A stretch of DNA of 36,375 nt from the NCBI GenBank assembly GCA_012518215.1, contig JAAYSV010000028.1, positions 1-36,375 of the forward strand. Reading direction: 5' to 3'. Shown here one piece after another: positions 22-12,916 of the stretch (position 1 is the first letter of the stretch; each line of letters opens with the position of its first letter). A program made the translations under genes and the position numbers. Below the pieces are notes generated by a model. The model worked only from the letters and a program-made list of their open reading frames with translations, had not been told where the DNA came from and searched no databases. Origin of the DNA: Bacillota bacterium. GTDB taxonomy: Bacteria > Bacillota > Dethiobacteria > DTU022 > PWGO01.

Positions 22-920
22 GTATCCACGGCTGAAAGGCCGTGGCTCCATTGAAGGCGTTGTAAGATAGACGGTCGGAAGCGCCTTTTCGTGTATCCAC
101 GGCTGAAAGGCCGTGGCTCCATTGAAGCGAACGGTTGGAGGGCGAACTCTACCTGACCGAGCAGTGTATCCACGGCTGAAAGGCCGTGGCTCCATTGAAG
201 CCGAACGAGGCACTGAATACACATAAAACCTTTGCCCCCGTATCCACGGCTGAAAGGCCGTGGCTCCATTGAAGCATGGCACTCATGCCACATCTGCCAC
301 GCAGGGGGTTGGTATCCACGGCTGAAAGGCCGTGGCTCCATTGAAGCGGAAAAGACGAAATGCCGTTTAACGTCGATGAAGGTGTATCCACGGCTGAAAG
401 GCCGTGGCTCCATTGAAGCGATGAAATACCGCCGATCAGCAGCCCCGATTCCCGTGTATCCACGGCTGAAAGGCCGTGGCTCCATTGAAGCTATCTACTC
501 CAACCTTTCTGACACCGGCCACACGGCGTATCCACGGCTGAAAGGCCGTGGCTCCATTGAAGCAAGGAGGGGCATTGTTGAGGTCGCTGTGTTGGAGGAT
601 CGTATCCACGGCTGAAAGGCCGTGGCTCCATTGAAGCTAATCGTAGAGCAGTCGCTCTACCTGACCGAGCAGTGTATCCACGGCTGAAAGGCCGTGGCTC
701 CATTGAAGCATACCCGCTGCCCCGCGGCCAACTCCCACCGCAACACCGTATCCACGGCTGAAAGGCCGTGGCTCCATTGAAGCGACGAGCACAAAGCGGA
801 ACGCTATGTGGAGGCCACCCGTATCCACGGCTGAAAGGCCGTGGCTCCATTGAAGCAGGTTAGGGGTATCGTATCTTCTAGGGGTTAGATGTGTATCCAC
901 GGCTATGGCTCGATTCAGGC
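22..920 (+). CRISPR. CRISPR array, 12 intact repeats plus one decayed repeat
   Basis: Twelve copies of a 36-nt repeat (begins GTATCCACGG, ends CCATTGAAGC) start at 22, 93, 166, 240, 312, 384, 456, 528, 602, 674, 748 and 821. They are identical except that the first ends in G instead of C. Each contains a perfect 7-bp stem (CCACGGC/GCCGTGG) around a TGAAAG loop. Spacers are about 35-38 nt. The 3' end ATTGAAGC resembles the ATTGAAAC crRNA 5' handle of type I and III systems, so the array is probably transcribed on +. A thirteenth repeat at 893-920 lacks 8 internal bases and has several substitutions, which marks the leader-distal end. Bases 1-21 may be part of another spacer, so the array may extend left of the window and no leader can be seen. 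Spacers 2 and 9 share their last 19 bases. Confidence 0.98.
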
Positions 921-1249: not shown

Positions 1250-2308
1250 ATGCATACAGTAAAAATTGAGACTTTGACACCCTTATGGACCGGCAATTCA
1301 AAGGGAAGTGGTGAAAACTTGAGGGAAACAGGAATTATCGGTAGTCTGCGCTGGTGGTACGAAATCCTTGTGAGAAGTTTCGGTGGGAATGTTTGCGATC
1401 CTACTAGCGGCAATTGTAAAGACAAAAATCGCTGTGACGTATGTGAACTTTTTGGATGTACGGGTTGGGGACGCAAGTTTAAACTTGAGATAAATACTCG
1501 GGAAGAAGATATAGAATACATTGATGGTATAAACGTATATTCGCAAAGAAAAAAAAGGGGAAAAAAACAAAAAAGGCCTTTCAGCGGTATTGCAACAAAG
1601 AACAAACGGCACATAACATTAAATTTTATTCCGTTGAAAGAAGTATCTCCTGTCGAATGGTGCCGATTGAAATGTACTTTGAAATTTATTGCAGAATATG
1701 GTGCCCTGGGAGGGCGTATTTCTCAAGGCAATGGGGTAATCAGGATTGTTAATAACAGTTTTGAAAATCTTGATTGTTCCCGTGTTAAAGGTAAAACCAA
1801 TGTTAAGAACAGTGGAAGAAATGGCCAATCAGTCTATAGCCTGGAGAATTTTGTTATCTGGAAGTTCAAAATCAGTTTTACAGCAGCGGTAGAAGATCTT
1901 CTGAAGGAGAAAGCTTTTCCCCTCATAGATGATAAAAATTACGCTGAAATGAAAGAAGTATGGAATAACTGCCACATGCTGCCTATAGGTTTTCATGTAA
2001 GGGATGCTATACGCCCAGTTGTAAAAAATCATCACAATAACCACTATGATTTGGTCGGAAAAGGCGGTAGAGGTTCTCGAATATTTGTATCTCACGGTTA
2101 TCAAAATGACGAGGATGAAAGTATGGAGTTCAGGGTTTTTGGTTTTTTTGAAAAGGGAGAGGAAGAAGTGTGTGAAGAAATAAAAAACTGTATTTCAAAT
2201 TGGCTTTCAGCGTATTTGGTTGCCCACGAAAAGGGATTTGACATTAAAGAGATAAATCCGATTTCCAAAGAAACGGGGAGGGAAATAATTGAAAGGGGAA
2301 TCATCTGA
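1250..2308 (+). CDS. cmr1: Cmr1-like RAMP protein, type III CRISPR effector
   Basis: This encodes a 352-residue RAMP-superfamily protein resembling Cmr1, the subunit at the head of Cmr-type effector complexes that bind crRNA and target RNA. The N-terminus reads TPLWTGN followed by ETGIIGSLRWWYE (about 10-38), which is the Cmr1 signature. Five cysteines at 49, 56, 62, 65 and 70, ending in CELFGC, could bind a metal. A glycine-rich loop (GALGGRISQGNG) typical of RAMPs follows mid-protein. The ATG at 1250 is preceded by a GGGGG ribosome site about 9 nt upstream. A run of A8, G4, A7 and A6 near 1549-1575 encodes a Lys/Arg-rich stretch. It is the first gene of a six-gene cas operon; the next gene starts 1 nt after its stop. 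The family call is firm; the exact subtype is inferred from the neighbours. Confidence 0.88.
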   Translation: MHTVKIETLTPLWTGNSKGSGENLRETGIIGSLRWWYEILVRSFGGNVCDPTSGNCKDKNRCDVCELFGCTGWGRKFKLEINTREEDIEYIDGINVYSQRKKRGKKQKRPFSGIATKNKRHITLNFIPLKEVSPVEWCRLKCTLKFIAEYGALGGRISQGNGVIRIVNNSFENLDCSRVKGKTNVKNSGRNGQSVYSLENFVIWKFKISFTAAVEDLLKEKAFPLIDDKNYAEMKEVWNNCHMLPIGFHVRDAIRPVVKNHHNNHYDLVGKGGRGSRIFVSHGYQNDEDESMEFRVFGFFEKGEEEVCEEIKNCISNWLSAYLVAHEKGFDIKEINPISKETGREIIERGII

Positions 2309-2309
2309 T

Positions 2310-3224
2310 ATGACCCATGTATATGATAATTGCCTTAATTCAATAAAAAACATCAAATCTTGCAATGATTGGAAGAGAGAAGAAAAAGAGAAGGAGAAAG
2401 GCAAAAGGAGGAAAAACCGGTCTGATAAGCAATGGATAGAAAAATGGATCCAAGATCAGTTTATCAAACCGCTGAAAAACAATTTTAACCAACCCGGCGG
2501 GAAACAGGTGCAATCCGGAAGATTTTACCCTCAATTTGATAAAAAACACTCTTCTTTTCCCCGGAACTCGGTTCATATCAGAATAATAAAGTTCACTCTG
2601 AAAAAGCCATATATCAGCAGGGATGACCGTATATTTTACGTTAAAAAAGATAAATTCCATGAAAATCCCATTGTCAGGGACAAGCTCACCGGATTTCCCA
2701 TGGTAAAGCCCACTACCTGGAAAGGCCATCTTCGATATGCTGCAGAAAAGGTTAAGGCAGAAAACAACAAAAAAGAAATTATAGATCGTCTCTTCGGTAC
2801 AGAGAATAATCGTGGAAGGCTTCATTTTTTCCCCACTTTTTTTGATCATGATCAGAAACCTGAGGGTGTTATTACGCCGCTAAGCAGAAAAACGAGAACT
2901 CCACTCCGGGGCCGGGGCCCTATTATGTTTGAGAAGGTAGGGGGCGGTGCAGAAGCCGAGTTGCACCTTTTTTATTTCCCCTACCCGAAGGGTGCAAATT
3001 ATACCAGTGACGAGGTAGGGGAAGATCTTGCCCTGCTGGCTGAATCCCTCAAACTTATGTTTTATACCTATGGTTTTTCGGCCAAGAAATCTTCAGGTTA
3101 TGGGGTAGTTAACAGGTTGCAAGATGGTCAAATCGAGGTTATTCCGGATAATTTCAAAGAGCATTTCAGGGTTTTGTATGACGACCAGAACGGAGCAGGG
3201 GGAGGTGGCCCAGATAACAAGTGA
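2310..3224 (+). CDS. Cas7-group RAMP protein (Csm3/Cmr6-like)
   Basis: A 304-residue RAMP protein, probably a crRNA-binding backbone or cap subunit of the effector. Residues 120-142 (NPIVRDKLTGFP followed by PTTWKGHLRY) match the RDPLTG...PGSSLKGxLR segment of Csm3/Cas7 proteins. A C-terminal AKKSSGYG (about 258-265) is the glycine loop. An Asp pair at 105-106 (SRDDRIF) is a possible RNA-cleavage site, but this is a guess. The N-terminal 45 residues are highly charged (KREEKEKEKGKRRK) and not RAMP-like. I chose the ATG at 2310 because AAGGGG lies 11 nt upstream and it directly follows the cmr1 stop; a TTG at 2289 is an alternative. Its 3' end overlaps the next gene by 47 nt. Its position suggests the Cmr6 role, but the motif looks Csm3-like, so I leave the symbol open. 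Confidence 0.85.
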   Translation: MTHVYDNCLNSIKNIKSCNDWKREEKEKEKGKRRKNRSDKQWIEKWIQDQFIKPLKNNFNQPGGKQVQSGRFYPQFDKKHSSFPRNSVHIRIIKFTLKKPYISRDDRIFYVKKDKFHENPIVRDKLTGFPMVKPTTWKGHLRYAAEKVKAENNKKEIIDRLFGTENNRGRLHFFPTFFDHDQKPEGVITPLSRKTRTPLRGRGPIMFEKVGGGAEAELHLFYFPYPKGANYTSDEVGEDLALLAESLKLMFYTYGFSAKKSSGYGVVNRLQDGQIEVIPDNFKEHFRVLYDDQNGAGGGGPDNK

Positions 3225-6200
3225 TAGTGCAGGAACTATACGCCAAAAAATAAAGGAGAAACGGGAACCGATTTTGCTAGGAGAGATCGGTGCTCTTCTT
3301 CATGATATCGGTAAATGCCGCGGTGATTTTGTGGAGCAGAAGTCAGTGGAAGGGAAAGAAGGTGTTGCACGGCATGAAAGTATCGACGATTTTCTCGACA
3401 GGCAGTTGATTGACTTATTTAAAAGAATTGAATTTGATTTGGAAATAAAGCATAAAGATTCCAGTGTTGAGACCGTCAGTTCAGATATTTATGAACTTGT
3501 TACAGAACACCATAGTCGAAGTGAAACCAATCTTCTGGTAAAACTGTTACAACAATGTGATCGCCTTGATTCCGCCGATGACAAGGGTATAATTCGCAAA
3601 AAGCAGCCCAGGGGCAACGTTGTAATCAGCACCCCCTTTGGCTGTGCCAGGGAGAAGATCAATTTTTGTTGCCTCGATACACGATTACAATACTTGGAAC
3701 GGAAGCTTTTCTCGATTATTGATAGATATGTAGAAGGGGGTGAGATGTCACTCCAGGAGTTCCGGAAGCAGGTAATGGATGATATTCATATAGCGTTCTC
3801 CCATGCCTTGGGGGAGACAAGGATTCCGGCCAACGATGTCACGTTGTGGGATCATTCCTACTCCACCGCTTCCCTCTACAAGACCCTTCTCTGCCAGGCT
3901 GCCCTGGACGGGAAAATCGCTGAGGATGATTTGAAATGGCGGCTTTTTGGAATATTCTGGGACGGGGAGGGTTTTATCGATAAAGGAAACAAGGTTGCCG
4001 ATATACTGGAACGCAAAAAAATAATTGATGAAGTCCATGATAAATTGAAGGAAGAATTCGAGGTCGATTCTCCGGTGGGGAATGCAGTTTACCAGGACAT
4101 CAACGGAATTATCTTCACCTTCCCCTCTCTTGCAAAGGATGCCATACAGTTGGCAGAAGAGTGTTCGGATGTCGGCTGGGATATCATCCTGGAAGAAAGC
4201 CAGAATGAGCTATGGCCGTTCTTTACCCTGAGCGAAGCTCGCCGCAGCATGACCATGATCAGCTGGATCCTTGATCTTGCAGAAGAGAAGCGGAAGATAC
4301 CGAAGATGAGTCCGGCACTGTTTGTTGAGGACGATGACAGGGGAAAAAAGTGGGACAGAAAATGGCTTGGTCAAAACAAAAACGGTATAAACGCTATACT
4401 ATCCGGCGATATCGAGGGGGAAAAAGAGATATGCCCTGTCTGCAAAATCAGGCCCAAGGAAAGGTCCGGGGAGACATGTGCAGTTTGTGGTGAAAGAAGG
4501 GGCGGGAGATTAAATAAATGGTTGAAAGAAGATAGGTCGGGAACCATCTGGTTAAGCGAAGTGGCAGACGAAAATAACAGGATTGCCCTGCTTGGCTTGA
4601 ATCTCGGCCTGAGAAATTGGCTCGATGGTACTACGATAAGTACGATCTATTCTCAGACATTTGAGGATTGGTATAAAAATAAAAAGATGAATACTAAAAA
4701 GATGAAAGATTTATTAAATAAAATAGAAGCAGAACGAGAAGGATTACGTGAAAGCAACTTGCAGGAATTTGCTCTGTGTCTGATAGAGAAATACTTGGTC
4801 CCGAAGGACCGTAATATAGAGGATGCAGCCCTGATTTTCAATACTTTTTTTGAAGATCTTTCCGTGGGCGGAAAAACATTTGAAAAAGCCTGGGGAAATT
4901 TCTGCAAGAAGCTCCCCGATAAAAACCCGGAGACCATACTGGCCACATTGTTTACCCAAAATTCATCCCCGGCGCGTCTCTTCAGAATATGGAAAGAGGC
5001 GAAAGAGTTCTGGGACCTGGTGCTGCAACGATGTATGTCGGGACACGGAGAAAGTTGGCAGCGACTCAGTTTCAAGGTAGAAACAGTAAACAATGAACTT
5101 GAAAAGAATACACCTTATATTTTCAGGTTTAAAATTCTTGAGCCTGACAATCTGCTTGTTCTACATGTAGCTGATGGTCAATTTCTGACCATTGAATCCC
5201 TGCATAAATTTAAAATGATGAAGAAAACCGGAGAAGCGGAAACCGAGGGTAAGGAAATTAAAGGTATGGCAGCAGTAGAAAAAGCGTTGGAGGAGCGAAA
5301 TTTAAGGAGCATAGAAGAAGAGGAAAATCCTGAAAAATCCATCAATTTTGATTCTAAAGAAGTTCCGAAAAAAGTTCCGAAAGTTGAAAATGTCGAAAAG
5401 GAACATTATTTTCCCCATATCGAGATTCTCAACACGCCCCTGCTATTTCAAGTTATCGTTCCGGCGCAGGAAGCAACAAACATTCTGAAAGAGATAGATA
5501 AACTTTTCAATGAACGATTCAAGATGGTTACCGGCAAACTTCCCTTGAATGCAGGGCTCCTGGTTGCCAATAGAAAATTCCCCTTATATCTTCTGCTCGA
5601 GGCGGGAAGAAAAATCTTGCGCGAGAGAAACTTTCAGAAGCAGACATTATTGGACCCTTGGTGGGACATAAGCGAACAGGATGAGTTTCATCGTCATTAC
5701 CCACTGGGGAGACTTTCTCCTGACCGAAGCATGTATTATTTGAATGAACTGGCACCCCTGGCAAAAGGAAAATCTTATGCCTTGTATCCCGGTTATTTTG
5801 ATTTTGACCTGATCAAAGGAGGCGGGGATTGCCGCAAGCTGGTCTATAAAAATAGGAAACGCACGCATGGCGAATATCTGCTTCTATCAAACCGTCCCTG
5901 TTATTTCTATCAGTTCGGCAAGATGATTGATTTGTGGGAAATTCTTGAAAACAACCTCTCCGTGTCTCAGATTCAGTTCATCAACGAAGCCATCAGTTCT
6001 AAAAAACTGGAGTGGCGGAATATTGAAGATCGAAGCAAAGATGATGTTCTGCAGATCTATGCAAAAAGAGTTTTGCTGGATGCGTTTGGAGGAAAATGGC
6101 CGAAACTTTCCGAAGAAACCCGGAACTTCATCTTCAGTGTACTACAGAATAATCTTTTGCTGGATACGATTAATTTGTTTCAACAGACCATCAAGGAAAA

Positions 6201-6261
6201 CGGAGGTAAAAAAGCAAATGAAATCATATCAGTATCGTCGGTATCACGCTCTATGCCTTGA
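3178..6261 (+). CDS. cas10: Cas10-family large subunit with degenerate cyclase site (Csx11-like)
   Basis: A 1027-residue large subunit of a type III effector. An N-terminal HD domain is intact: LLHDIGK with H42-D43, then EHH at 110-112 and CDRLDSADD near 127. This predicts metal-dependent ssDNA cleavage. A zinc ribbon follows (C419, C422, C434, C437). Two palm-like regions are recognisable, around 'NRIALLGLNLGLRNWLDG' and around 748-815 (LLFQVIVPAQEA then GKLPLNAGL and FPLYLLLEAGR). Where Cas10 enzymes carry GGDD just before this segment, the sequence is NTPL (752-755), so cyclic oligoadenylate synthesis is unlikely. The size, intact HD and lost GGDD fit Csx11, the Cas10 of type III-C; this assignment is from memory of the family. 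The ATG at 3178 has CAGGG 6 nt upstream; an in-frame ATG at 3124 would overlap the upstream gene further. Its 3' end overlaps the next gene by 44 nt. Confidence 0.88.
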   Translation: MTTRTEQGEVAQITSDSAGTIRQKIKEKREPILLGEIGALLHDIGKCRGDFVEQKSVEGKEGVARHESIDDFLDRQLIDLFKRIEFDLEIKHKDSSVETVSSDIYELVTEHHSRSETNLLVKLLQQCDRLDSADDKGIIRKKQPRGNVVISTPFGCAREKINFCCLDTRLQYLERKLFSIIDRYVEGGEMSLQEFRKQVMDDIHIAFSHALGETRIPANDVTLWDHSYSTASLYKTLLCQAALDGKIAEDDLKWRLFGIFWDGEGFIDKGNKVADILERKKIIDEVHDKLKEEFEVDSPVGNAVYQDINGIIFTFPSLAKDAIQLAEECSDVGWDIILEESQNELWPFFTLSEARRSMTMISWILDLAEEKRKIPKMSPALFVEDDDRGKKWDRKWLGQNKNGINAILSGDIEGEKEICPVCKIRPKERSGETCAVCGERRGGRLNKWLKEDRSGTIWLSEVADENNRIALLGLNLGLRNWLDGTTISTIYSQTFEDWYKNKKMNTKKMKDLLNKIEAEREGLRESNLQEFALCLIEKYLVPKDRNIEDAALIFNTFFEDLSVGGKTFEKAWGNFCKKLPDKNPETILATLFTQNSSPARLFRIWKEAKEFWDLVLQRCMSGHGESWQRLSFKVETVNNELEKNTPYIFRFKILEPDNLLVLHVADGQFLTIESLHKFKMMKKTGEAETEGKEIKGMAAVEKALEERNLRSIEEEENPEKSINFDSKEVPKKVPKVENVEKEHYFPHIEILNTPLLFQVIVPAQEATNILKEIDKLFNERFKMVTGKLPLNAGLLVANRKFPLYLLLEAGRKILRERNFQKQTLLDPWWDISEQDEFHRHYPLGRLSPDRSMYYLNELAPLAKGKSYALYPGYFDFDLIKGGGDCRKLVYKNRKRTHGEYLLLSNRPCYFYQFGKMIDLWEILENNLSVSQIQFINEAISSKKLEWRNIEDRSKDDVLQIYAKRVLLDAFGGKWPKLSEETRNFIFSVLQNNLLLDTINLFQQTIKENGGKKANEIISVSSVSRSMP

Positions 6262-7144
6262 CCCGGTTCACATTGGCGCGGGCGGGTACAGGCTGGGCAG
6301 GGTGGATAATACGATTGTTCGTGAACCGGCAACGGATTTGCCCAAGATTCCGGGAACATCCCTGGCGGGAACTATTCGTGCCTACACCACCATAGCCCTG
6401 AGAGAAGATGCTGCTGCAGAACCTGGGAACATGACAGAGGAAAAGGAGAAAAAAGTTTCGGAGAGGATAATTCGTTATTTCGGTGACACGGACATACAGG
6501 GCATGGTGCGCTTCCATGATGCAGAGATTGTATTGTTCCCGGTGGCATCCATCAAAGGCACGGTATGGATAACGACCAGAAGACTCTGCGAGTATTGGAT
6601 GAACGGGAAAACAGATGATCTGCCCGGAGATCCGGGAAATAAGGCATGTATCATTAAATGGGATGGGACAGAAAAACCTGGTAAATTTAATCTGGGTTGG
6701 TTGTTGCTCGAAACAGCAGGCGAAAGTGAGATAGATTTTGAATTTCTCCCCTCGGGTATCATTGAAAGGATTGCCATCCTCCCGGATCGTCTTTTCTCCG
6801 GTATCGTAAATGACAATCTTGAAGTGCGGACATCGGTGAAAATTGATCCCGAAACCGGTGCTGCTGAAAAAGGGGCCCTCTTTACCTATGAAGCCATACC
6901 CCGCGGAACGGTACTTGGCTTCAAGATCATAGTCAATTCAAGGGACAAAGACGAAACAAATGGGGCATTAAATTCAATCGAAAAATGCTTTCCTTACCTG
7001 GAAATCCTGGGTGTGGGCGGTATGGGAACACGGGGTTTCGGGCGGATTCAGGTGGAACCGTTGGATTCATATACTGAAAAAGTAACCGAACAATCTGGCT
7101 CGGGTGTAGAGAAGGACTGCGGAGAAAGGGGTGGTGGGCAGTGA
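6218..7144 (+). CDS. cmr4: Cmr4-like Cas7 backbone RAMP
   Basis: A 308-residue RAMP that probably forms the repeated backbone along the crRNA and cuts target RNA. The N-terminal half has DPVHIGAGGYRLGRVDN followed by REPATDLPKIPGTSLAGTIR (15-54), the Cmr4/Cas7 signature. D30 sits where Cmr4 carries its catalytic Asp. A C-terminal GVGGMGTRGFGRIQV (about 265-279) is the glycine loop. The ATG at 6218 has GGAGGT nine bases upstream and begins inside the 3' end of cas10. The next gene starts at GTGA overlapping its stop, indicating translational coupling. Cas7 identity is well supported. The Cmr4 name is by best resemblance, because III-C loci use Cmr-like names loosely. Confidence 0.87.
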   Translation: MKSYQYRRYHALCLDPVHIGAGGYRLGRVDNTIVREPATDLPKIPGTSLAGTIRAYTTIALREDAAAEPGNMTEEKEKKVSERIIRYFGDTDIQGMVRFHDAEIVLFPVASIKGTVWITTRRLCEYWMNGKTDDLPGDPGNKACIIKWDGTEKPGKFNLGWLLLETAGESEIDFEFLPSGIIERIAILPDRLFSGIVNDNLEVRTSVKIDPETGAAEKGALFTYEAIPRGTVLGFKIIVNSRDKDETNGALNSIEKCFPYLEILGVGGMGTRGFGRIQVEPLDSYTEKVTEQSGSGVEKDCGERGGGQ

Positions 7145-7524
7145 TCAACCTTGATTTTTACTGTATGCAATATGGGCAGAAGCTGGGTATGAGGAAAGAA
7201 GGCAAATCAAAAGAAAAAAAACAACACGAAAATAATATCAGGGATGCTCTGGCCGTATTGACTGAAGACGGGGTATATGCCATGTTTGTCTGGCTTGAGT
7301 CCAAAAAGTTATCCGAAATCCGAGTGGGCTTGAGGGAACTTATGAGTGACGCAGAGATAAAAAAATATCTTTTAAACGGAAAAAATTTAGGCGAAGAATT
7401 TGACGAGTTTTGCGAAAACTTGCAAGAAATTGCCCGGGACCTGGACAAGTTGCTTTTTCTCAAAAAGATTCTGGAGCGGACTTTGACCTATGCGCTTTAC
7501 CATGCCAAAACAGAAGCGGGGTGA
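7141..7524 (+). CDS. cmr5: Cmr5-like small subunit (Cas11)
   Basis: A 127-residue, charged, predominantly helical protein. Small size, the segment DALAVLTEDGVYAMFVWLES and its position directly after cmr4 match the Cmr5/Cas11 small subunit, which lines the target strand in type III complexes. It starts with GTG overlapping the previous stop by 4 nt (GTGA), with GGGGTGG just upstream. The next gene overlaps its own stop in the same GTGA manner. Sequence conservation in this family is low, so the call rests partly on gene order. Confidence 0.78.
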   Translation: MINLDFYCMQYGQKLGMRKEGKSKEKKQHENNIRDALAVLTEDGVYAMFVWLESKKLSEIRVGLRELMSDAEIKKYLLNGKNLGEEFDEFCENLQEIARDLDKLLFLKKILERTLTYALYHAKTEAG

Positions 7525-8552
7525 TCCTTTTGGTTGAAGATGGCTGCAAGTGGGATGGAATAAAACTAACCTATCGGTTGCAGGGCCACCTGCATATAGG
7601 ATATCTGCCCAGAGGGGGTACGGTGGTGGCGCATACGAGGCGCTACCTGCCCGGCAAAAACTTCTGGGGGGCGGTTACAAAACGGGCAACCGAATATCTA
7701 TTCCCGGAGCCCGAAGGGAAAGATTACGGAAGCATCGGAGAGAAGATCAAGAAATACTTTCGCTTCTCATATTTTTATGTAACCGAAAATGGCCTGATCT
7801 ATCCCCCCCTTTTTACCGATGAGGGTTTGGTTTATGGATCCGGATCCGGCTCGAAGATGACCGAAGGGCAATTTGAATACAGGTATATAGGCAACAGGGT
7901 GTCCACAGAAATAGATTCTGGTACCGGAACGACTATGGAAGGATCGCTCCATGAAATCGAATACATCAAAAAAAGATATAGAAACGCCAGGGGAAACATC
8001 AAAAATACCGAGGTAAGCGGTTGTGTGTGGGTCAAGAAAGGGGCGAGGCTTCCTGACCGTGAAAATTCTTCGGATGTTGCCATTGAAATATCCGATGAAG
8101 GGATATTTATCAAAGCCCCCTATCAATCGGCGAAATGCAATTTGCTCGATGAGATTTCAATCGGTGGGGAGCAGAATTACGGGTTCGGACGGATTGAAAT
8201 TGTAAAAGTGGAGAAGGAAAAAGAGTTGACCGGAAGGTATTCTCTGTCCGAAGAGGGAGTGAATGTTTCTTTGTCTTCCGGGGAGCATATCCTCGCACAT
8301 GTTCCTTGCAACAAAAATTTATCCGATGTTTGTTTTTGCGGCGATATAGAACTTCTGGGCGGCCGCGAGTATGCTGCAGGTAAAAAACGGTTTGGAAAAC
8401 CGGGAGCCCGGATTGTAACGCCGCAATATCATTTTGCACCCGGTAGCAGGCTGTTCCGCAGAAACAATGATGGGGCCAAGATGGATTTTGAATTGCAATA
8501 CGATGGGACCATGAATTTGGTTAGACGGGAAATCGAAGAAAGACCGAGGTGA
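7521..8552 (+). CDS. Divergent Cas5-like RAMP protein, last gene of the effector operon
   Basis: A 343-residue RAMP protein. Near residues 214-225 it has GGEQNYGFGRIEI, a classic RAMP glycine loop, and near the N-terminus RLQGHLHIGYLPRGG. In the Cmr-like gene set the missing member is the Cas5/Cmr3 subunit that holds the crRNA 5' handle, and in type III-C Cas5 is described as extremely divergent. I therefore infer that role, but the residues do not prove it. I chose the GTG at 7521 because it overlaps the small-subunit stop by 4 nt exactly as at the previous junction. The C-terminal third (after about 240) shows no motif I recognise. It is followed by a strong hairpin at 8591-8616. Confidence 0.72.
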   Translation: MILLVEDGCKWDGIKLTYRLQGHLHIGYLPRGGTVVAHTRRYLPGKNFWGAVTKRATEYLFPEPEGKDYGSIGEKIKKYFRFSYFYVTENGLIYPPLFTDEGLVYGSGSGSKMTEGQFEYRYIGNRVSTEIDSGTGTTMEGSLHEIEYIKKRYRNARGNIKNTEVSGCVWVKKGARLPDRENSSDVAIEISDEGIFIKAPYQSAKCNLLDEISIGGEQNYGFGRIEIVKVEKEKELTGRYSLSEEGVNVSLSSGEHILAHVPCNKNLSDVCFCGDIELLGGREYAAGKKRFGKPGARIVTPQYHFAPGSRLFRRNNDGAKMDFELQYDGTMNLVRREIEERPR

Positions 8553-9452: not shown

Positions 9453-10640
9453 TTAAAGTTTCTGCACGAAATTCTTCCCGTATTCCCGGCAGCGTTGCAG
9501 GGCTTCCCTGTCGGGGTTCCACATTTCTCTGATTCCCTCGTCGACGACGGTGGCCCCTGCTCTGTCAAGCGCCTCGGAAATCAACTTGACACTTTCGCCG
9601 CTCCATCCGTAGCAGCCGAAGGCGGCGGCTTTCTTGTTCCTGGGTTTGAGGCCCCTGATCATCTCTATCATTCCGGTTACCGAGGGAAGCATGCCGTTGT
9701 TGACTGTCGGCGATCCTACCAGGTATGCTTTGGATCTGAAGATCTCGGTGAAGATATCGTTCTTGTCATTTCTGCCCATGTTGTACTGTTTCACCGTCAC
9801 TTCCCCGTCCGCTTCTTTTATGCCGGCGGCGATGGCTTCGGCCATCTTCCTGGTTCCTTCCCACATGGTGTCGTAGATGATAGTGATCTGGTTCTCCTGA
9901 TAATTATCTGCCCAGGCCATGTACCGGTTCACGATTTGCAGCGGGTCCTCCCTCCATATAACCCCGTGGCTGGGGCAGATCATGTTCACGGGCAGGTTGA
10001 GACTCAACACTTCTTCGATCTTCCTGGTCACCAGGGGGCTGAAGGGGGTCAGTATGTTGGCATAGTATTTGATCGCTTCCTGGTATAGTTCCGCTTTGTC
10101 CACACGGTCGTTGAACATCATTTCTGTTGCGTAATGCTGTCCGAAGGCATCGTTGCTGAAGAGGATATTCTCGCCGGTCATGTAGGTGAACATGCTGTCG
10201 GGCCAGTGCAGGAATCTTGCTTCCACGAAGATCAATTTGCTGTCGCCAAGATCGAGAGTATCTCCCGTCTTGACCTCGACGAAATTCCAGTCCTGATGGA
10301 AATGCCCCTTGAGGGATTTCACGCCGTTCCCGGTGCAGTAGATCGGCGTGTCCGGTATTTCCTTCATCAGTTCCTCGAGCCCGCCGCTGTGATCTATCTC
10401 TGCATGGTTGGCAACGATGTAGTCGATCTCGTTCAGGTCTATCACTTTTTTCAGGTTCTGCACGAATTCACGGGCGAAAGGTTTCCATACGGTGTCGATG
10501 AGCACATTCTTTTTGTCCCGCACCAGAAACGCATTGTAGGTGGAACCACGATGCGTCGAGTATTCCTCTCCATGAAATTTTTGCAATTCCCAGTCCACTT
10601 TACCCACCCAGGTAACTTTCTCGCTGATCCTGTGTTTCAC
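9453..10640 (-). CDS. Flavodiiron protein (class A; NO/O2 reductase)
   Basis: A 395-residue soluble enzyme that reduces O2 to water or NO to N2O, protecting anaerobes. The N-terminal metallo-beta-lactamase-fold domain carries the complete diiron set: H79, E81, D83 and H84 (NHAEIDHSGG), H145 (FLHWPDSM), D164 (SNDAFGQH) and H225 (CPSHG). The C-terminal flavodoxin domain begins at about 251 (ITIIYDTMWEGTRKMA). There is no rubredoxin extension, so an external electron donor is needed. The start is GTG at 10640 with AGGAGGT 6 nt upstream; the frame stays open further upstream but lacks family similarity there. It is followed by a hairpin terminator and a solo CRISPR repeat. It lies 200 nt downstream of the acyl-CoA synthetase on the same strand. 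Confidence 0.95.
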   Translation of the reverse strand: MKHRISEKVTWVGKVDWELQKFHGEEYSTHRGSTYNAFLVRDKKNVLIDTVWKPFAREFVQNLKKVIDLNEIDYIVANHAEIDHSGGLEELMKEIPDTPIYCTGNGVKSLKGHFHQDWNFVEVKTGDTLDLGDSKLIFVEARFLHWPDSMFTYMTGENILFSNDAFGQHYATEMMFNDRVDKAELYQEAIKYYANILTPFSPLVTRKIEEVLSLNLPVNMICPSHGVIWREDPLQIVNRYMAWADNYQENQITIIYDTMWEGTRKMAEAIAAGIKEADGEVTVKQYNMGRNDKNDIFTEIFRSKAYLVGSPTVNNGMLPSVTGMIEMIRGLKPRNKKAAAFGCYGWSGESVKLISEALDRAGATVVDEGIREMWNPDREALQRCREYGKNFVQKL

Positions 10641-10840: not shown

Positions 10841-12916
10841 TTAGCGTCTCCCGATGTTTGCGGCATGGTGATACATGGCAGAGAGGGCCTTCACGGCCTC
10901 CTCCGGTGTGGCATAGACCGGAAACCCGGCCTGCTCCAGGGCGATCACCTCATCGATGGCAAATTCCTTGCAGGGGACACACAGAAGGATGGGCTTGCCC
11001 CGGAAGTCGGTCTGTTGCAGTTGTTCCAGATATGTTTGCAGTATCTCCGCCTGGATGATGGCGATGAAGCTGCCGATATCTTCACTCTGCACGCCGATCT
11101 CGATGATGTCCCGCAGCTGTCTGGCATGAAGGTCGAAAGTGCAGTCAACGGGATTCTGGGGGCCCACGAACGGCGGCAGGATTTCTTTCAGGCGGCGGAG
11201 GGTGTGCTCATCCGGCGCGGCCAGTTTCATCCCGCTCAGCGAAAGGGCATCGGCAGAGGCCACTCCCCAGGAACCGGTGTAGGAGATGACCATCACCCCG
11301 TCGCCGGAAGGGAGGGGTTGCCTGGAAAAAGCCCTGGCCAGCCCGAACATATGCTCGTTGTCCTCCGCCCTGATGATCCCCGTTTGCCTGAAAGAGGCGT
11401 CATAGATCAGGTCGTTTCCCGCCAGGGAGGCGGTATGTGAGGAGACCGCTTTCTTGCCTGCTTCCGTCCGTCCGGATTTCAGGATGATTATCGGTTTGCG
11501 GGGAGTGATCTTGCGGGCCACCTCGATAAACTTCTGCCCGTCCTTCACGTCTTCCAGGTACATGCAGATCACTTCCACATGATCGTCCTCGCCCAGATAT
11601 TCCAGGATGTCGGTCTCATCGGTGTCGGTCTTGTTGCCTATCGTGGCCAGGATGGCGAAATCCATGGTATGGCGCATTCCCCAGAGCATGCCGGCGACGT
11701 ATACTCCCGCCTGGGCGATCAGCCCGATATTCCCCCGGCGCAGTTCACCGACTATCCCCAGAGATTGAACCATGCGGTGATGGGTATTGATGATGCCGGA
11801 GCAGTTCGGCCCCACGAAGCGGCAATCGTGGGCTGCGGCCAGTTCCCGCAATCTTTCCTCGATGTCTCTGCCGCTTTCGCCGGTTTCGGCAAATCCGGCC
11901 GATTCGATGATGATATGCTTGATTCCTTTCTTGCAACATTCTTCAAACGCCTTGACCGTGTGAGCTGCGGGGACGAGGATTATCGCTGCATCGACCGCTT
12001 CCCTTATCTCATGCACATCGGCCACCGCCGGAACTCCCTGGACGGTTTCCGCCTTGATATTGACGGGATAAAGCTTGCCCGCGAAACCGTGTTCCAGCAG
12101 GTTGTTGAAGACATTCCAGCCCAGTTTCCCCGGGGTGTTGGAAGCACCCACGACGGCCAGGCTGTCGGGGTAAAAGAAGGGGTGCAGGTCGGCTGCCTTG
12201 CCTTTTGCGGGCAACCGGGTTTCGCCCGAATCCGCTTCTTCAAGGAAGATGCGCGCATCGACGACCGTGTTTCCCTCGTCATAGAGGAAGACCGGATTGA
12301 GATCGACCTCCTTTATCTCCGGGTGGCGGGTTACCAGCCCGGAAATCCTGTGCAGGAGCTGTTTCAAGGCCGGAAGATCGATCGACGTGCCCCGGTAACC
12401 CGCAAGCAGGGTGTAGCCCCGGATTTCCCCGATCATGGCCTCGATATCAGTTTCCGTCACCGGCAATATCCTGAAGGAGACATCCTTGAGTACCTCGACG
12501 AAAACACCGCCGAGGCCGAACATGAGAGCCGGACCGAAGGTGGGATCCTTGCTCACGCCGATGATCGCTTCCAGCCCCGGGGGTGCCATCTTCTGCACGG
12601 CGACACCGACCATATTCTTGCCGGCAAAGGCGGTTTCGATCCCGGCAAAAGCGTCTTCCACCTCGGCGGCATTCTGCAGGTCAAGTTTTACCCCGCCCTC
12701 ATCGGATTTGTGGACCACTTCGGGGGAGAGGACCTTCAAGACGACCGGATAGCCGATGCGGCCACTTGTTTCCACGGCTTCTTCGGCAGAACGGGCCACG
12801 GAGGCGCCGGTGGTGGAGATACCCAGCTCCTCCAGAATACTCTTGCACTCGTGTTCCATGAGGTAAGTTCTATTTTCGTTTCTGGCCCGGCCGATAATAT
12901 TTTTCCATGATTTCAT
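10841..12916 (-). CDS. Acyl-CoA/acetyl-CoA synthetase (ADP-forming), fused beta-alpha
   Basis: A 691-residue enzyme of the NDP-forming acyl-CoA synthetase family, which converts acyl-CoA, ADP and phosphate to acid, CoA and ATP. Residues about 20-235 are the ATP-grasp (beta) domain, with GYPVVLKVLSPEVVHKSDEGG. From about 245 comes the alpha part, with a CoA-binding Rossmann domain (VVGASNTPGKLGWNVFNNL) and the phospho-histidine motif SSHTASLAG at H494. The domain order is beta then alpha, the reverse of the usual alpha-beta fusion. The ATG at 12916 has GAGGG nine bases upstream; another ATG three codons earlier is too close to that site. A good promoter lies upstream at 12975-13002. Substrate (acetate, propionate or branched acids) cannot be read from the sequence. 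Confidence 0.92.
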   Translation of the reverse strand: MKSWKNIIGRARNENRTYLMEHECKSILEELGISTTGASVARSAEEAVETSGRIGYPVVLKVLSPEVVHKSDEGGVKLDLQNAAEVEDAFAGIETAFAGKNMVGVAVQKMAPPGLEAIIGVSKDPTFGPALMFGLGGVFVEVLKDVSFRILPVTETDIEAMIGEIRGYTLLAGYRGTSIDLPALKQLLHRISGLVTRHPEIKEVDLNPVFLYDEGNTVVDARIFLEEADSGETRLPAKGKAADLHPFFYPDSLAVVGASNTPGKLGWNVFNNLLEHGFAGKLYPVNIKAETVQGVPAVADVHEIREAVDAAIILVPAAHTVKAFEECCKKGIKHIIIESAGFAETGESGRDIEERLRELAAAHDCRFVGPNCSGIINTHHRMVQSLGIVGELRRGNIGLIAQAGVYVAGMLWGMRHTMDFAILATIGNKTDTDETDILEYLGEDDHVEVICMYLEDVKDGQKFIEVARKITPRKPIIILKSGRTEAGKKAVSSHTASLAGNDLIYDASFRQTGIIRAEDNEHMFGLARAFSRQPLPSGDGVMVISYTGSWGVASADALSLSGMKLAAPDEHTLRRLKEILPPFVGPQNPVDCTFDLHARQLRDIIEIGVQSEDIGSFIAIIQAEILQTYLEQLQQTDFRGKPILLCVPCKEFAIDEVIALEQAGFPVYATPEEAVKALSAMYHHAANIGRR

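Follow-up and report, generated by a model that had tools for sequence, protein, structure and literature searches.

Two spacers of the CRISPR array at the left end of the window, the whole 36,375-nt stretch of Bacillota DNA that was analysed, are identical over one half and differ in the other. Judged by homology, spacer 2 was acquired in the ordinary way, from the coding strand of a phage gene encoding an SbcC-like ATPase. Spacer 9, on the other hand, may be a composite that received its non-PAM half by copying from a spacer 2–like unit; for this reading, which is drawn from the assembly of one draft genome, the chances appear evenly balanced. Models of array evolution usually treat spacers as whole units that are gained, lost, or duplicated. 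A spacer joined from two halves would, if true, break this whole-spacer rule, and such joined spacers would be one source of those that match no known virus. That arrays in general form new guides by recombination inside spacers, with one part copied through the flanking repeats and the resulting crRNA never having been contiguous in any invader, is a tentative generalization to which we give somewhat less than even credence. If spacer 9 is ordinary, what remains is a III-C operon adjoining an I-G–style array, one spacer of which can serve DNA targeting and not the recognition of the phage transcript.

Architecture of the array and its shared spacer end

The array is broken at the left contig end, and the window opens inside it (Table 1). 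The genome assembly is a draft of 61 contigs. The degenerate repeat copy on the right marks the trailer; hence, the leader is located past the left contig end, and the crRNAs are read on the + strand. The repeat folds into a hairpin (fold z = −3.2) that is followed by CTCC and ATTGAAGC. Its final C is the apparent first base in 11 of 12 spacers (the first of the 12 repeat copies ends in G), and with this C counted as part of a 36-nt repeat, spacers 2 and 9 proper have the lengths listed in Table 1. Copies of the repeat in the whole genome are confined to this array, and the same repeat was found in none of 60 relatives.

The 19-nt end that the preliminary description reported for spacers 2 and 9 is exact (CTCTACCTGACCGAGCAGT). 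In both spacers, it forms precisely the 3′ end abutting the downstream repeat, and the identity covers the adjoining repeat as well. The first halves, described as differing, have only 5 of 18 positions in common, and both spacers are indeed open in one + frame ending in LYLTEQ. In a type I array, the 3′ end of a spacer, next to the downstream repeat, is the non-PAM end; this is the end at which spacers 2 and 9 are identical. The next longest run common to any two spacers of the array comprises 8 nt, and the 19-mer occurs at 8 places in 257 Gb of genome contigs, on which grounds chance sharing was rejected. These 8 matches lie in other genes, and the sequence preceding them agrees with the first half of spacer 9 at ≤8/18 positions. 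The 19-mer is contained in Oscillochloris genes (L128, L129, L131, L132) that by eye resemble the start of Cas1 (MATLYLTEQ).

Table 1. Features of the array and the adjoining effector operon, in positions of the window
Feature	Position	Strand	Description
CRISPR array	22–920	+	36-nt repeat GTATCCACGGCTGAAAGGCCGTGGCTCCATTGAAGC in 12 copies, followed by a degenerate 13th (893–920)
Spacer 2	128–165	+	37 nt without the C of the repeat; by homology, a piece of a phage gene for an SbcC-like ATPase, coding strand
Shared 19-mer in spacer 2	147–165	+	Encodes LYLTEQ
Spacer 9	637–673	+	36 nt without the C of the repeat; candidate composite spacer
5′ half of spacer 9	637–654	+	No source match found
Perfect 7-bp inverted repeat	643–660	+	GTAGAGC-AGTC-GCTCTAC, across the spacer 9 junction
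Direct repeat in spacer 9	646–652 and 667–673	+	GAGCAGT
Shared 19-mer in spacer 9	655–673	+	
Type III-C effector operon	1250–8552	+	PADLOC and Pfam matches; ORF starts not refined
cmr1	1250–2308	+	III-C operon gene
cmr6	2289–3224	+	III-C operon gene
cas10c	3124–6261	+	III-C operon gene
cmr4	5927–7144	+	III-C operon gene
cmr5	7141–7524	+	III-C operon gene
cmr3	7410–8552	+	III-C operon gene

The phage target gene of spacer 2

One contig in IMG/VR (L013) contains the exact 19-mer, located inside a gene for a 663-aa SbcC-like ATPase (phrog_77, E 2e-88) that adjoins recT. The conserved motif of this gene is LYLTEQFIR, and spacer 2, which matches the conserved stretch, reads E-R-L-E-G-E-L-Y-L-T-E-Q. 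Over its full length, spacer 2 agrees with L105 and L023 at 33/38 positions, with L123 at 31/38, and with L013 at 30/38, and 0 of 100,000 shuffles fit the nucleotide profile of the gene as well as it does. The source phage at full identity is absent from the collections searched. The earlier proposal that the common part stems from homologous phage genes thus stands for spacer 2, which fits the gene from end to end.

The strand of spacer 2 is the coding strand in all homologues; its crRNA therefore cannot pair with the phage mRNA. For spacer 2, the type III use that the preliminary description made dependent on the coding strand is contradicted herewith, and the sense orientation fits DNA targeting by a type I-G system rather than III-C transcript recognition, as far as strand and homology tell. 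In 52 of 84 homologues, the site of spacer 2 is preceded on its 5′ side by TTT or TTC; this count, made on homologues and for a single spacer, fits the TTN PAM of I-G without proving it. The remaining spacers of the array have only chance-level matches to phages. Several homologues read TTATCC after the spacer 2 site (window 165–172), near the repeat start GTATCC, which is probably chance.

The first half of spacer 9 and its possible origins

The 5′ half of spacer 9 begins with TAATCGTAGAGCAGTCG and, aligned at the common core, reads L-I-V-E-Q-S. When scored with a nucleotide profile built from 73 homologous prefixes, this half is at shuffle level, with 10–17% of its own shuffles scoring as well. 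An unbiased set of homologues was formed by genes retrieved with the core peptide LYLTEQF[IV]R alone, 28 of which have a readable prefix. Herein, residue −6 is E and residue −4 is L or M in 28/28 genes; spacer 9 has L and V at these positions. Among homologue pairs with a core identity of ≥14/19, none has a prefix identity of ≤5/18; spacers 2 and 9 combine 19/19 with 5/18. VEQS (−4 to −1) resembles a sequence found in some homologues, namely LEQE.

Several other sources of this half were considered. Exact searches of IMG/VR for the first half and the junction gave no match, and the first half has no match in the 398 genomes of the phylum or in the own genome, which was thereby rejected as a source. 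For spacer 9, known phages and plasmids yield weak, chance-level matches only, and the best hit of its 5′ half elsewhere in the phage loci (14/18) approximates the chance expectation in 1.3 Mb. Distant homologues were rejected as donors of the odd prefix because their core diverges as well. For a tRNA origin of GTAGAGCAGTCG, no cloverleaf was seen by eye.

With re-sampling of one protospacer site, the pair has in common that two spacers of one array carry sequence from one conserved phage gene. Known re-samplings, however, are alike over the whole spacer. In the array of G017, which has 85 repeats, five spacers come from one site, are alike over their full length, and differ by point changes or one-base slips; spacers 2 and 9, in contrast, are identical in one half and unrelated in the other. 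In four arrays with ~3,600 spacer pairs altogether, no second pair of this half-shared kind was seen. In addition, Cas4 makes a precise cut at the PAM end of I-G spacers, and trimming of the non-PAM end shows no preference for sequence (PMC10504553). Samples taken repeatedly at one PAM should therefore agree at the PAM end and vary at the other; in spacers 2 and 9, it is the non-PAM end that is identical. For spacer 9, the part of the earlier proposal that invoked re-sampling is not supported: its 5′ half is at shuffle level, no homologue has such a prefix, and real re-samplings are alike throughout. The G017 locus (L179, G017:C30, 9406–15045), a large array with five one-site spacers and a clean example of repeated sampling, also contains duplicated blocks at 9765–9987 and 11055–11277.

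Duplication and rearrangement inside arrays affect ~3% of spacers, and recombination between arrays is reported to be rare (PMC11472070). The case resembles such events in the presumed copying between units through repeat homology. Whole spacers are moved in the known events, whereas spacers 2 and 9 have half a spacer in common (19 of 36–37 nt). In the composite reading, the 19 nt together with the adjoining identical repeat would have been copied from a spacer 2–type unit into another one, older and unrelated to it. Local conversion or a template switch anchored in the 36-nt repeat would be the most likely route; the recombination itself, and which way the copying went, are inferences. Copying through the repeat would account for a tract that ends exactly at it without coincidence, and thus jointly for the boundary that both spacers share, for their perfect identity up to it, and for the first-half misfit. 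Against this speak the junction, which is without microhomology, and the requirement of a non-homologous second end for a conversion that stops inside a spacer. The total length of spacer 9 is normal, the VEQS/LEQE likeness points the other way, and neither a parent of its first half nor a donor–recipient intermediate was found. A literature search for hybrid, chimeric, mosaic, or composite spacers found none.

The main rival, which is the view of the preliminary description, holds that the same site was sampled twice, independently, in related phages to give spacers 2 and 9. Spacer 9 would then have been taken up in one contiguous piece from a phage outside the collections, with an SbcC-like gene that is mosaic or highly divergent immediately upstream of LYLTEQ; this is a real possibility that we nevertheless rather doubt. 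It draws on the frame of spacer 9 staying open (LIVEQSLYLTEQ), on GAGCAG (EQ) being in register with the EQ of some homologues, and on the mosaic nature of many phage genes, and the partial VEQS/LEQE match keeps it alive. Moreover, one site has been sampled repeatedly in the array of a relative (G017), and for spacer 2, too, the collections contain no source phage at full identity. The prefix is conserved in 28/28 unbiased homologues, however, and where homologues diverge more strongly, the core diverges too; the shared boundary would be a coincidence, and degenerate searches of IMG/VR for E-x-[STC]-LYLTEQF and E-Q-[STC]-LYLTEQ gave no match.

A sequencing or assembly artefact, that is, a chimeric read or a misassembly around the repeats, is suggested by the fragmented assembly and the array being broken at the contig end. 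We regard it as improbable, since a misassembly swaps units at repeats and makes no junction in the middle of a spacer, and extension would fail on a chimeric read whose 3′ end is mismatched. Very improbable, finally, is a self-templated synthesis of the first half from the core itself by fold-back and slippage. The 7-bp inverted repeat at the junction and the 7-nt direct repeat of spacer 9's own end each occur in ~0.7% of shuffles and jointly in 0.005%, and the hairpin of spacer 9 is the longest among the 12 spacers. Yet the two repeats overlap and were picked afterwards, spacer 12 carries a 7-nt direct repeat as well, GAGCAG may simply reflect homology, and CTAATC is left without explanation.

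Cas systems around the array

The genes downstream of the array form a III-C effector module consisting of Cas10c (match 3.5e-198) and cmr1, 3, 4, 5, and 6. Cas10c carries an HD motif (residue 60) but lacks the GGDD cyclase motif; hence, no cyclic oligoadenylate signalling is expected. An inactivated cyclase is described for III-C (PMC12669027), and in this respect, as in its gene content, the module resembles this subtype. Unlike in III-C use, the crRNA of spacer 2 is in the sense of the phage gene and thus useless against its mRNA. Among the scanned proteins neighbouring the operon, no cas1, cas2, or cas6 was found.

The genome contains two cas1 genes. The first belongs to a I-B cas1/cas2/cas4 set that adjoins its own 20-repeat array on contig C19. 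The second is part of a complete I-G operon on C55 (L036, G000:C55, 256–9538), where I-G models detect all six components, namely a cas4-cas1 fusion, cas2, csb2 (cas5-cas6), cas7g, cas8g, and cas3, with cas4-cas1 and cas2 running toward the contig end. This operon is probably the missing cas partner of the array. In I-G systems, the repeat is cleaved 4 nt after the hairpin base, which results in an 8-nt handle (PMC9638904), and the array repeat exhibits the same order of hairpin, 4 nt, and 8-nt handle ATTGAAGC. In G061, a genome of the same order, an array follows the I-G genes after ~200 bp, and its repeat also ends in ATTGAAGC.

The array thus resembles type I-G (formerly I-U, with a Cas4-Cas1 fusion) in its 36-nt hairpin repeat, its 8-nt handle, and the complete operon present in the genome. 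It differs in having III-C effector genes at the far end and a contig break where a physical link to the I-G genes would be expected. C55 and C28 both end at the expected place, and the assembly does not contain a join between the array and the I-G genes. Most likely, going by repeat form and gene content, it is an I-G array with its cas genes across the contig break and the III-C genes at the far end, and the neighbouring III-C genes may also use the crRNAs of this I-G–style array. A Cmr1-like gene lies near the I-B locus (L035, G000:C19, 6993–13170) and possibly belongs to a second type III module.
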